NCBI RefSeq assembly: GCF_018687785.1
Contig: NZ_LTBL01000001.1
Location: 62,001 to 126,000 of the forward strand
From: Methanovulcanius yangii
Lineage (GTDB): Archaea; Halobacteriota; Methanomicrobia; Methanomicrobiales; Methanomicrobiaceae
Direction: 5' to 3'
DNA: 64,000 nt
Shown: positions 4,637 through 8,007 of the stretch, piece by piece
Position numbering within the stretch: the first letter of the stretch is position 1
How the letters are laid out: every line of letters begins with the position of its first letter
Notes under the pieces: generated by a model
The model's input: the letters and a program-made list of their open reading frames with translations, nothing else
The model's database searches: none
What the model was told of the DNA's origin: nothing
Translations under genes and position numbers: made by a program

Positions 4637-4906
4637 TCAGATAATGGACTCGGGATGCCGCTCCCCGCTCAGGAAGACCGGGCGGGCGTCTTCGACCCTG
4701 AGGGTCCGCCCCCCGAATTCCTTTCCTGCCATCACTTCACGCGCCCGCTCGGCTCCTTCAAGGGTTTCGTAGGTAACAAATCCGAATCCGTCGGCCGCGT
4801 GCATCTCGATATCCGTGATCGTGCCAAATTCCGAAAACAGTTCCTTCAGGTCATCCTCACTGACCGAATGGCTGAGATTTCCGACATAGAGTTTATGACT
4901 CTCCAC
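4637..4906 (-). CDS. RRM-type RNA-binding protein
   Basis: An 89-residue protein made of one RNA recognition motif. RNP2 is LYVGNL near the start and RNP1 is GFGFVTYE in the middle, with the beta-alpha-beta order intact. The start is a GTG at 4906: a perfect AGGAGG lies eight bases before it, whereas longer readings upstream run through unrelated sequence. Small single-RRM proteins occur in bacteria and some methanogens, where they bind single-stranded RNA. A T6 tract on the coding strand lies about 100 bases downstream. Targets are unknown. Confidence 0.85.
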   Translation of the reverse strand: MESHKLYVGNLSHSVSEDDLKELFSEFGTITDIEMHAADGFGFVTYETLEGAERAREVMAGKEFGGRTLRVEDARPVFLSGERHPESII

Positions 4907-5051
4907 TACTGGCGCCTCCTGATACTGCGTAAGATGCCGCTCCTCCCCAATGAATCTTTGGTCACTGCGGGTTGGAAGGTTTCCCTGTCCGGGTCTGCCG
5001 CCTGCCAGCAAATCGCGGTGCGCAGCACTCTCCTGTATGCCCGCAATCCGA

Positions 5052-5303
5052 TCATGCAGGACGTTCCCAGACCGGGATGCCCTTGTAGAGGATCCTGAGG
5101 ATGCGGTGGTAGGGGATGGGGGTATCCTCTCCCGTCCCGGATGCCACCGTAAAGTAGTCCCGGTCGAGGCCGGCGATGATCCCGCCGGCGACGGACGACC
5201 GGTCGCCCGGAGCCCCGCGGTTGACATACTCAACCGTCACCTGTCCGAAATCGAATGCTGCATCATGCCACATGCGCAGGAGAAGGGCGTGGCTGGTACG
5301 CAT
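5052..5303 (-). CDS. DUF504 / MJ1316-domain protein
   Basis: An 83-residue protein matching the archaeal DUF504 family. It has the typical 'VTVEYVNRGAPGD' block and the ending 'IPYHRILRILYKG..VWE'. The family (UPF0248, MJ1316) has been linked to recognition of RNA cyclic-phosphate ends. No ribosome site precedes the ATG, but AAAATAGC is centred 26 bases upstream, so the message may be leaderless. It lies beside the RRM gene on the same strand with a 145-base gap, which fits two RNA-related genes. Confidence 0.8.
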   Translation of the reverse strand: MRTSHALLLRMWHDAAFDFGQVTVEYVNRGAPGDRSSVAGGIIAGLDRDYFTVASGTGEDTPIPYHRILRILYKGIPVWERPA

Positions 5304-5466: not shown

Positions 5467-5474
5467 AAAAAAAA
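5467..5474 (-). terminator. T8 terminator of six-gene operon
   Basis: Eight T residues on the minus strand start five bases after the stop of the last operon gene (5480), a good archaeal terminator. Confidence 0.6.
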
Positions 5475-5479
5475 GGTTC

Positions 5480-5821
5480 TTATCCCTCTTTGAGCATTGA
5501 TTCTTCCTTCACTCCCGCCCGGGGCGGGGCCGTCGCCATGGTATGCAGCCGGATGATGCCGTGGCAGGAGTTGCAGACATAGTACTGCTCCGTCCAGCAT
5601 GAAGGACAGGACCATCTGCCGCAGAGGCTGCACTGCTTCATATCCGTGAGGGGAAACGAGTCATTGCAGAGATCGCAGAAATACCGTGAGAAGGTCGAGG
5701 GATCCTTCTGTGGCGGCTGCCCCTGTTTTCGCATCACCGGAATATTTCCCCTGAGGCGGGCATAGAAATTTTCCGGCGATTCTGATGGCTCATTCGCCGC
5801 ATATCTGCTTCTCGAGAACAT
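5480..5821 (-). CDS. Cys-rich zinc-binding protein, last gene of six-gene operon
   Basis: A 113-residue protein with eight cysteines in paired C-x2-C steps across one central stretch: FCDLC, CSLCGRWSCPSC and CNSC. This looks like a treble-clef or B-box/RING-like double zinc site. The ATG at 5821 follows GGAGG at nine bases and overlaps the preceding gene by 32 bases; a longer in-frame start at 5845 has no ribosome site. The N-terminus is basic/polar without a signal. Tight coupling to the coiled-coil genes upstream implies that it acts with them. No family assignment could be made. Confidence 0.75.
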   Translation of the reverse strand: MFSRSRYAANEPSESPENFYARLRGNIPVMRKQGQPPQKDPSTFSRYFCDLCNDSFPLTDMKQCSLCGRWSCPSCWTEQYYVCNSCHGIIRLHTMATAPPRAGVKEESMLKEG

Positions 5822-6131
5822 TGATGCGTTCCTCCAGTCCGGCAAGGGTGGTGTTCATCTCTTCTTCAAACGTTCTCAGGGCGGTCACCTTCTCTTCGCC
5901 CGCCGCAAGGGCCTTCTCCTTGTTTGCGCAGAAGGATTTGACCTGGTACCGGTCCATCAGGGACCATTCGGCGACCATCATCTCGAAATGCCGGTCGAGG
6001 TACTCGTCCACCCTGCTCTCCATCGGGCGTGTGATGGCCACATGACCACCGGTCCCCCGGAAGTAGTAATACAGTATGAATGCGGCAATGATGATGAGAA
6101 TGATGAGAAGAGCAATCTCTAGCCCCGTCAT
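5790..6131 (-). CDS. Membrane-anchored coiled-coil protein with Y..EW motif (1)
   Basis: A 113-residue protein. Residues 3-24 form one transmembrane helix (LEIALLIILIIIAAFILYYY). Then comes RVDEYLDRHFEMMVAEW and a C-terminal coiled coil. The stretch aligns without gaps with the two genes upstream in the operon: Y-[LF]-D-x2-[FM]-x3-[VI]-x-E-W. The ATG at 6131 overlaps the previous stop as ATGA, and GGAGG lies seven bases before it. The topology suggests a short outside end and the motif plus coiled coil in the cytoplasm. No named family is recognised. Confidence 0.8.
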   Translation of the reverse strand: MTGLEIALLIILIIIAAFILYYYFRGTGGHVAITRPMESRVDEYLDRHFEMMVAEWSLMDRYQVKSFCANKEKALAAGEEKVTALRTFEEEMNTTLAGLEERINVLEKQICGE

Positions 6132-6352
6132 TTCTTCGCCTCCCTGCACCGGGCAAGCCGCTGCTCCAGTACGGTAAGACGGGCAGCAGCGCCCCTTTCA
6201 AAGGCGCTGAGCTCCCGTATTTCTCCCTCGACAAACCCGAGGCGCTCGGTGAAATCCCCGAAATCCCTCCTGGTGCCAAGGTTCCACTCCTCGATGATGT
6301 CTTTCATGCGGCGGTCAAAGTAGGTGTTCATGTAATTGTCAATACCGCTCAT
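6128..6352 (-). CDS. Small coiled-coil protein with Y..EW motif (2)
   Basis: A 74-residue soluble protein that starts almost directly with the shared motif, IDNYMNTYFDRRMKDIIEEW, followed by a heptad-type helix to the end. It has no transmembrane part. The start overlaps the upstream stop (ATGA), and AGGAGGT lies about ten bases before it. It looks like the minimal form of the family represented three times in this operon. It probably forms a helical oligomer with its neighbours; the function is unknown. Confidence 0.8.
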   Translation of the reverse strand: MSGIDNYMNTYFDRRMKDIIEEWNLGTRRDFGDFTERLGFVEGEIRELSAFERGAAARLTVLEQRLARCREAKK

Positions 6353-6666
6353 TGTTTCTCTACCTCCTCCTCAAGCCCACGCAATTCCTCGTCCACTGCC
6401 CGGGCCCGGGTCTGGAGGGCGGCCCTCCCCTTTTCGAGGACCTGGATGTCCAGGCTGACCATGTCCAGTCGACGTTCAAGCTGTTCCAGCATGCTGAGGG
6501 TGACAAATCCCCATTCCTCAATGAGGCCTGGCATGTATTCATCGAAGTAGCGGTCCATTCGCTTGTCAAGCGTTGGCATTCTCGAATCGATGGTGCCGGG
6601 AATCGAGGTCAGGGTCTCGGAAAATGAATGTTTCCGTTTCGTTTCCGGAATCTCTGTCTCATACAT
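6349..6666 (-). CDS. Coiled-coil protein with Y..EW motif (3)
   Basis: A 105-residue protein. A 30-residue polar N-terminus leads into LDKRMDRYFDEYMPGLIEEW, the third copy of the motif, then a long heptad coiled coil rich in Leu, Glu and Arg. The ATG at 6666 is preceded by GGTGAT at five bases; a GTG at 6675 overlapping the upstream stop is an alternative. It has no transmembrane helix. It overlaps the next gene by four bases. Function unknown. Confidence 0.8.
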   Translation of the reverse strand: MYETEIPETKRKHSFSETLTSIPGTIDSRMPTLDKRMDRYFDEYMPGLIEEWGFVTLSMLEQLERRLDMVSLDIQVLEKGRAALQTRARAVDEELRGLEEEVEKQ

Positions 6667-6671
6667 CTCTA

Positions 6672-7073
6672 TCACCGGATCTTCCTCTCGTCTTCTTTTA
6701 TCTTCTCGACCATGTGGTCGAGCTTGGTGCTCTTCACCATATTTTCCAGCCGTTGAATTCTCTTCTCAACGGCACTCTGCTTGGCAAAGATGTCCGTTTC
6801 CAGCCGGATGTTCTCTTCATCAAGTTTGTTTATCTCTTCCAGCCGTTCAGGTGGAATCCTGAAAAACGGCTGCCCCCGGTGGGCGTACTCCAGCGTCATC
6901 AGTTTGAGTTTCTCCTTTTCCAGTTCGATCTCCGCAAGGCGCGGGGTCACTCTCCCCTCCTGTATCACCCGGATGATGTAATAGACGATGATGAGCCCGA
7001 TAAAGAGGAGAACCGCCCAAAGAACCGGCTGAAACCACTCCCACCATGCCGGATAGACATACTCTACGGCCAT
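6672..7073 (-). CDS. Membrane-anchored coiled-coil protein
   Basis: A 133-residue protein. A Trp-rich start (AWWEWFQPVLW) runs into one transmembrane helix (residues 16-36), followed by about 90 residues of strongly charged helix with heptads ending ...EKIKEDERKIR. It lacks the Y..EW motif found in the next three genes. A GGGAG element lies before the ATG. Second gene of the operon; it is likely a membrane anchor or scaffold for the soluble partners. No family recognised. Confidence 0.78.
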   Translation of the reverse strand: MAVEYVYPAWWEWFQPVLWAVLLFIGLIIVYYIIRVIQEGRVTPRLAEIELEKEKLKLMTLEYAHRGQPFFRIPPERLEEINKLDEENIRLETDIFAKQSAVEKRIQRLENMVKSTKLDHMVEKIKEDERKIR

Positions 7074-7088
7074 TATGGATGACTCCCT

Positions 7089-7511
7089 TTAGAGTTCCTT
7101 CTCGCCCGGTCCGGGCCTGATCTTCTCGCCGATGTCTTTTACCCCCTCCTCGATGGACTTTCCTGCCCTGCCCGCCCCTTCCTGGACGGCCTTTCCGGTG
7201 GCGCCCGCCTTCTTTGTAATCACCTCGGTGAGAGGGATTTTTCTCTGGACGATGACGCTATCCCCCTCGGCGATGCCGAGCCTGGCAATATCCTCAGCGC
7301 TCATCCGTATGACGTCCTCCTCGACCATTGCGTCGGCATAAGCAGAGAGGACCAGGGGTTTGGGGTGTTCTTCTTCTTCAAGAGGATATCTCTGGATTTC
7401 GATATTTTCCCCCACCTCTACGCCAAGTTTTGTTATCACCGATTCATGTAGCCTGGCGCGTCCGCGGCTGGGGACGGCCCGTGTCTTCACTTTCAAATAT
7501 ATTCCTTCCAT
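7089..7511 (-). CDS. Double-psi beta-barrel-like protein with repetitive tail
   Basis: A 140-residue protein. Residues 1-95 resemble a duplicated AbrB/CDC48-N-type barrel: two matching halves, 'ARLHESVITKLGVEVGENIEI' and, shorter, 'AEDIARLGIAEGDSVIV'. Residues 100-140 are a Gly/Ala/Lys/Glu-rich amphipathic tail (KAGATGKAVQEGAGRAGKS) like LEA-type helices. First gene of the six-gene operon. A strong TATA box sits about 30 bases upstream, so the leader is very short. The barrel might bind nucleic acid or a protein partner; this is an inference from fold resemblance only. Confidence 0.75.
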   Translation of the reverse strand: MEGIYLKVKTRAVPSRGRARLHESVITKLGVEVGENIEIQRYPLEEEEHPKPLVLSAYADAMVEEDVIRMSAEDIARLGIAEGDSVIVQRKIPLTEVITKKAGATGKAVQEGAGRAGKSIEEGVKDIGEKIRPGPGEKEL

Positions 7512-8007
7512 AGTAGGGACGGAATCGGTGACATGGTATTTATATATTGTGCTGAAAAGAACGACGTAGAATTAATATTTTTTTTCATTATTAAAATCTG
7601 TATGACCCCCTGCCTTCCTCTCTTCCGCATTCCTGTGGTGGGTGCCGGGATTCATGGCAAAGATGAGGAATCAGCCTGGTGCTATGACTGCTGATGGCTC
7701 AAAACGGTGATTATCCTCCCTCCTGTCCCCGAATATCAGGATTTTCTCCTCCGGTGCATCACCCGGAATAATTTCCGGAGTGTACCCCGCGACAAGGGTG
7801 GCCGCGACACCCGGAAGGGTACATCTTCCACGCTGTTTCAGCCGACTGTTCAGGGGCCGGAAACATCGATGTTGGAGATGAAGGGGGCGCTGAGGCGACG
7901 ACACTACCTGACTGCCCGAAGAGGTCCCCCCAAGGAGAACGGCCGGGGGATGGCGATGACCTCCCTATGTCGGGGCCAAAGATCGAACACCCCCCGGTAG
8001 ATCCGCA
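7512..8007. other. Divergence-free spacer with operon promoter
   Basis: About 500 bases without a supported gene. The left end carries the promoter of the six-gene operon and an AT-rich stretch (7570-7600). The right 300 bases are GC-rich with only implausible short reading frames in both directions. Confidence 0.45.
7537..7546 (-). promoter_or_regulatory. TATA box of six-gene coiled-coil operon
   Basis: TATATAAATA on the minus strand, centred about 30 bases before the ATG at 7511. The transcript would have a leader of only a few bases. It is one of the best TATA matches in the window. Confidence 0.6.

Follow-up and report, generated by a model that had tools for sequence, protein, structure and literature searches.

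A conserved six-gene cassette in one methanogen order, proposed to encode a membrane-associated coiled-coil assembly

A stretch of 64,000 nucleotides of Methanovulcanius yangii DNA, here called the window, carries a compact unit of six genes (A to F) that is inherited as an ordered set within a single methanogen order and in which three adjacent genes, C, D and E, are related to each other by descent. That the six genes act together is well supported by their co-inheritance, and their co-conservation suggests that the products form one physical complex. A sequence-only reading of the window had proposed a membrane-associated assembly of tandem paralogues, a proposal supported by the paralogy of C, D and E and by the ordered co-conservation. 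In the interpretation that we favour, and to which we give an even chance of being right, the cassette specifies a membrane-anchored coiled-coil scaffold or assembly on the cytoplasmic face, with a putative role in the homeostasis of the membrane or envelope or of osmotic balance. The parts are known folds, and the six-gene set corresponds to no known system within the databases and literature searched.

Table 1. Features of the cassette in the window, and A genes with a fused TrkA-C domain at three loci.
Feature	Position	Strand	Description	Basis
Gene A	7089-7511	-	140 aa; predicted double-psi beta-barrel (~1-93) and 11-residue-repeat amphipathic helix (~94-123)	
Gene B	6672-7073	-	133 aa; single N-terminal TM helix, then conserved charged helical/coiled-coil region	sequence
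Gene C	6349-6675	-	108 aa; soluble motif paralogue 1	AlphaFold model, heptad periodicity, paralogy
Gene D	6128-6352	-	74 aa; soluble motif paralogue 2, minimal form (motif helix and coiled coil)	paralogy, periodicity
Gene E	5790-6131	-	113 aa; membrane-anchored motif paralogue 3	paralogy, periodicity
Gene F	5480-5821	-	113 aa; binuclear treble-clef zinc finger, eight invariant Cys	Pfam, invariant columns
TATA-like box AATATATAAATA	7537-7548	-	5' of gene A	sequence and position
T8 run	5468-5475	-	directly after gene F	sequence
A with C-terminal TrkA-C	L079 5163-5975		lineage-specific sensor fusion	
A with C-terminal TrkA-C	L085 4334-5071		lineage-specific sensor fusion	
A with C-terminal TrkA-C	L201 3518-4330		lineage-specific sensor fusion	

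The six open reading frames lie head to tail on the minus strand at 5480-7511 (sequence and ORF list; Table 1) and form the unit that had been described as having one promoter, overlapping gene ends and one terminator. Neighbouring frames overlap by 4 bp at B/C (GTGA), C/D (ATGA) and D/E (ATGA) and by 32 bp at E/F, with a gap of 15 bp between A and B; a possible alternative start of gene C is the ATG at 6666. The TATA-like box lies about 32 nt upstream of the gene A ATG, and most relatives have an AT-rich box at the equivalent distance 5' of A. No ribosome-binding site precedes A, which is leaderless-like, while genes B to F have G/A-rich upstream sites. A hairpin terminator was sought at the 3' end of gene F and none was found there; the T8 run past F is likely to be a T-tract terminator of the archaeal type. 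The tight packing of the six frames, the TATA-like box, the T8 run and the AT-rich boxes of the relatives are the reasons for regarding the unit, and the motif that it contains, as real.

Of 93 loci from one order (some genomes being counted twice), 82 have the genes collinear, on one strand and in the sequence ABCDEF, and most of the remaining loci are cut by contig ends. Named contigs that carry the cassette belong to Methanogenium, Methanoregula, Methanolinea and Methanospirillum. Gene B occurs in 55 of the 135 near-complete genomes of the order, which are exactly the cassette-bearing genomes, and D in the identical 55 plus one weak single match (p about 3e-39 for their co-occurrence, uncorrected for shared descent). 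The main family has the cassette in 45 of its 59 good genomes. Within the family to which the window belongs, genera g3, g6 and g8 are without it, which points to gain or loss within families, and since these sister genera live without the cassette its role is not essential to the order. A search across 40 relatives and then the phylum confined the strong matches of the D profile and of a merged motif profile to the window's order. None of the flanking genes is conserved when families are compared, and none names a pathway; the cassette is therefore a self-contained unit.

Several genomes hold two or three full or partial cassettes (L146 and L182, with L156 and L143/L152 from the same bins; G357, G448 and G498). 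In two bins the second copy is without F, and contamination of the bins is possible. A cassette fragment comprising A, B, C and the start of D lies on a contig labelled Bacteroidota (L188), most likely through a binning error. In Methanogenium and in the genus of the window, a gene for a single-RRM RNA-binding protein (window 4637-5233; L062-L065, L067 and L068) lies no more than about 4 kb from the cassette, on a side that varies, and adjoining it in the window (5052-5303) is a small protein that matches the MJ1316 RNA cyclic group end recognition domain (PF04457).

The sequence-only reading had drawn attention to a motif, Y-[LF]-D-x2-[FM]-x3-[VI]-x-E-W, common to three small proteins and followed in each by coiled coil, with one copy membrane-anchored and two soluble. 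Both observations hold: the motif is exact in all three of C (YFDEYMPGLIEEW), D (YFDRRMKDIIEEW) and E (YLDRHFEMMVAEW), and E has an N-terminal TM helix ahead of its motif helix and of a coiled coil with a 4-residue insert, whereas C and D are soluble. The family profiles of C, D and E each recognise both sister proteins of the window, with scores of 23.3-45.4 bits, compared with a best score of 8.5-15.1 bits, depending on the profile, among 3,000 shuffled C, D and E sequences; a chance motif is ruled out by this difference. Generic coiled-coil similarity is ruled out as well, since the C, D and E profiles gave no match to the coiled-coil protein B, and the merged profile outside the order finds only coil regions, mostly of long proteins (E ~1e-5 to 1e-3). 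Judged by these profile comparisons, C, D and E are true paralogues, and in the merged alignment the paralogy reaches beyond the 20 residues of the motif to span motif helix, hinge and the whole coiled coil. Each of the three forms a single clade in a tree of 104 sequences (support 100/97, 90/83 and 99/97 for C, D and E), which places the triplication before the diversification of the sampled genera.

The coils of C, D and E have a heptad peak at 102.9 degrees (mean z 3.6, 3.6 and 3.1, respectively, versus z 0.2-1.6 at 98.2 degrees), and for B the part of the coiled region that was analysed has no clear heptad peak. In the AlphaFold model of C, a motif helix (36-55) is joined through a hinge (56-59) to a single coiled-coil helix of 48 residues (60-107); a Foldseek search with this model returned no match at E < 8. 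B, C, D and E have no match among the named families of Pfam or NCBIfam, nor do the motif proteins C, D and E match anything in PHROGs or PADLOC. The profile search and the comparison of neighbourhoods across the order thus connect the motif with no characterised family, and find the genes conserved together.

Gene A had been taken to encode a barrel-like protein, a description that can be refined to a predicted CDC48-N-type double-psi barrel with an apolipoprotein- or synuclein-like helix. The barrel is modelled by AlphaFold with a pLDDT of about 90 across most of its length and aligns with the N-domain of p97/CDC48 (VIA-align Z 15.6, rmsd 1.5 over 86 aa); according to this model it is a double-psi barrel of the CDC48/p97 Nn type. 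Its match to Pfam CDC48_N (PF02359; E 9.7e-6) scores 26.1, under the curated cut-off of 35.1, which makes A a divergent relative and not CDC48. Barrel profile scores are 94-145 bits in cassettes and then at most 33 bits elsewhere, and nearly all of the latter matches sit in ORFs of ~730-1,000 aa, the size of CDC48 ATPases, so that the closest relatives outside the cassette lie at the N-terminal start of CDC48-size proteins. Unlike CDC48/p97/VAT, with which it shares the fold, A stands alone, has an amphipathic helix after the barrel and is without the Nc sub-domain and the AAA domains D1 and D2 (140-aa model; no AAA match in Pfam).

The tail of A has a helical peak at 95-100 degrees per residue (11/3) in every A (z 1.3-6.4), is Lys-rich and varies in length among members. 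Its profile matches apolipoprotein A-IV and alpha-synuclein chains, with the caveat that a low-complexity repeat can yield apolipoprotein-like matches without homology. The A tail shares with these proteins an amphipathic 11-residue repeat, but it is short and joined to a barrel and the likeness is probably convergent; the 11/3 repeat would accordingly be a sign of an amphipathic surface helix and not of common descent. This tail, together with one anchored and two soluble paralogues of matched coil length, is also what speaks for SNARE- or ESCRT-like coiled-coil paralogues that remodel or tether membranes (fission, fusion, vesicles or the division site). We consider such a function unlikely, because neither sequence nor fold gave a convincing match to SNARE, ESCRT-III or PspA and the unit is without an ATPase.

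A TrkA-C domain (RCK_C, PF02080; E 2.6e-9 and 3.4e-6, above the Pfam cut-off) follows the tail of A in the Methanospirillum group and in a related uncultured clade, but is absent from the window's A and from most other A proteins. The same fusion is present in a genome that we take to be M. hungatei JF-1. This type of domain is a binder of small ligands, c-di-AMP being one of them in some bacteria (PMC12453120), and in Haloferax osmotic homeostasis is affected by c-di-AMP levels (PMC6741144). Both the fusion and the presence of c-di-AMP cyclase in relatives would suit a regulator of ion transport or turgor, with c-di-AMP or a ligand like it acting through the scaffold on a channel or transporter. 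This, too, is unlikely: only one clade has the fusion, and the cassette has no conserved transporter next to it. The cyclase domain, found in 39 of 40 relatives, is so nearly universal that it carries little information on the cassette.

Gene F, which had been read as a Cys-rich zinc protein, belongs to a named zinc-finger family, Prok-RING_2 (PF14445; E 4.1e-26, 91.4 bits against a curated cut-off of 22.4). The Cys residues of the window's F are spaced C-x2-C-x11-C-x2-C-x4-C-x2-C-x7-C-x2-C, every one of them kept in relatives, which also have an invariant CGRW-x-C core. This pattern does not fit the RING cross-brace C-x2-C..C-x(1-3)-H-x(2-3)-C-x2-C..C-x2-C; ligands 3 and 4 are two apart and ligands 4 and 5 four apart, a spacing of the FYVE/PHD type and not of the classical RING, and nothing about activity as a ubiquitin ligase can thus be read from the RING name. 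In the phylum sample, strong Prok-RING_2 matches come from cassette genomes and only weak ones from elsewhere. Another family of the phylum (f8) has stand-alone Prok-RING_2-like fingers of 58-70 aa with no cassette around them (L096, L097 and L098). F is missing at three loci that have space for it (L146, L170 and L182), for two of which the same metagenome bin also holds a full cassette; it thus seems to be the least essential part of the cassette.

The names attached to A and F invite the idea of a quality-control adaptor for membrane proteins, in which A would imitate the N-domain of CDC48 or compete with it, F would recruit in the way of a RING protein and the coils would keep clients ready for CDC48 or the proteasome, as on a minimal ERAD platform. 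The A barrel is indeed nearest to the N-domain of CDC48/p97, and F carries the Prok-RING_2 name. We nevertheless hold this to be rather improbable, given that A is without the Nc half and the AAA domains, that the spacing of F is nearer to FYVE/PHD than to RING, and that no neighbour is conserved across families. No ubiquitin-system gene is linked to F across families. A ubiquitin-type E3 complex is not supported; the E2 domain PF00179 gave no match in 40 relatives, nor in any control genome, so that this search had no working control.

That the cassette stands in for PspA in phage-shock membrane repair is very improbable: PspA has been reported as a signature of Methanosarcinales (PMC2686161), and few genomes of the order have it (9 of 135 over the cut-off), but there is no exclusion at the level of the order (4 of 55 genomes with the cassette and 5 of 80 without, p 1.0), the main family has a weak tendency (4 of 45 versus 4 of 14, p 0.08), and the cassette-less genera are mostly without PspA too. 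PspA/Vipp1 and ESCRT-III, as small helical proteins at the inner membrane face, offer an analogy only; no sequence similarity to them was found (none of the six proteins matches PspA_IM30, PF04012, in Pfam at E up to 1), and the domain architecture of the cassette is different. A viral, defence or mobile origin is unsupported by the searches of PHROGs (no match), PADLOC (all six proteins without a match at E up to 0.01) and IMG/VR (no relative of D). The earlier impression that no described system has this gene set stands throughout Pfam, NCBIfam, PHROGs, PADLOC and the literature searched, which contained nothing on PF14445 or the gene set; a study of prokaryotic RING fingers (Burroughs et al. 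2011) was outside this search, and an earlier mention of the neighbourhood is possible.

As a membrane-anchored scaffold, the products of the cassette would form a single obligate assembly at the cytoplasmic side of the membrane, held there by one TM helix each of E and B, whose C-termini would lie inside, as the positive residues after the TM helix suggest. C and D would join E through the motif helix and the heptad coiled coil, so that the three paralogues make a heteromeric bundle in which one chain is anchored and two are soluble. A would dock on the scaffold by its CDC48-type double-psi barrel and place its 11-residue-repeat helix on the lipid surface, where it may coat or sense the membrane, while F, the most dispensable part, would recruit a partner. 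The assembly would probably organise or protect the membrane or envelope under stress, and in the Methanospirillum group the TrkA-C domain on A could add control by a small ligand, possibly c-di-AMP or osmotic in nature. Its likeliest role would be homeostasis of the membrane or envelope, controlled by a ligand in one clade.

Overall, an ordered six-gene unit in cultured methanogens (Methanogenium, Methanospirillum and others), four of whose proteins belong to no Pfam or NCBIfam family, points to a membrane function that has been conserved and is nowhere assigned in the literature searched. Tentatively, and with a confidence that falls a little short of even, we see in it an undescribed membrane-organising machine of one methanogen order, which would combine a scaffold of three ancient paralogues, a captured CDC48 N-domain as adaptor to the lipid surface, a FYVE-like finger and, in one clade, a ligand sensor. 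The cassette is small enough to be expressed and reconstituted as a whole, and a CDC48 N-domain that has no ATPase attached and continues into a synuclein-like helix bears on how archaea reuse eukaryote-like adaptor domains.
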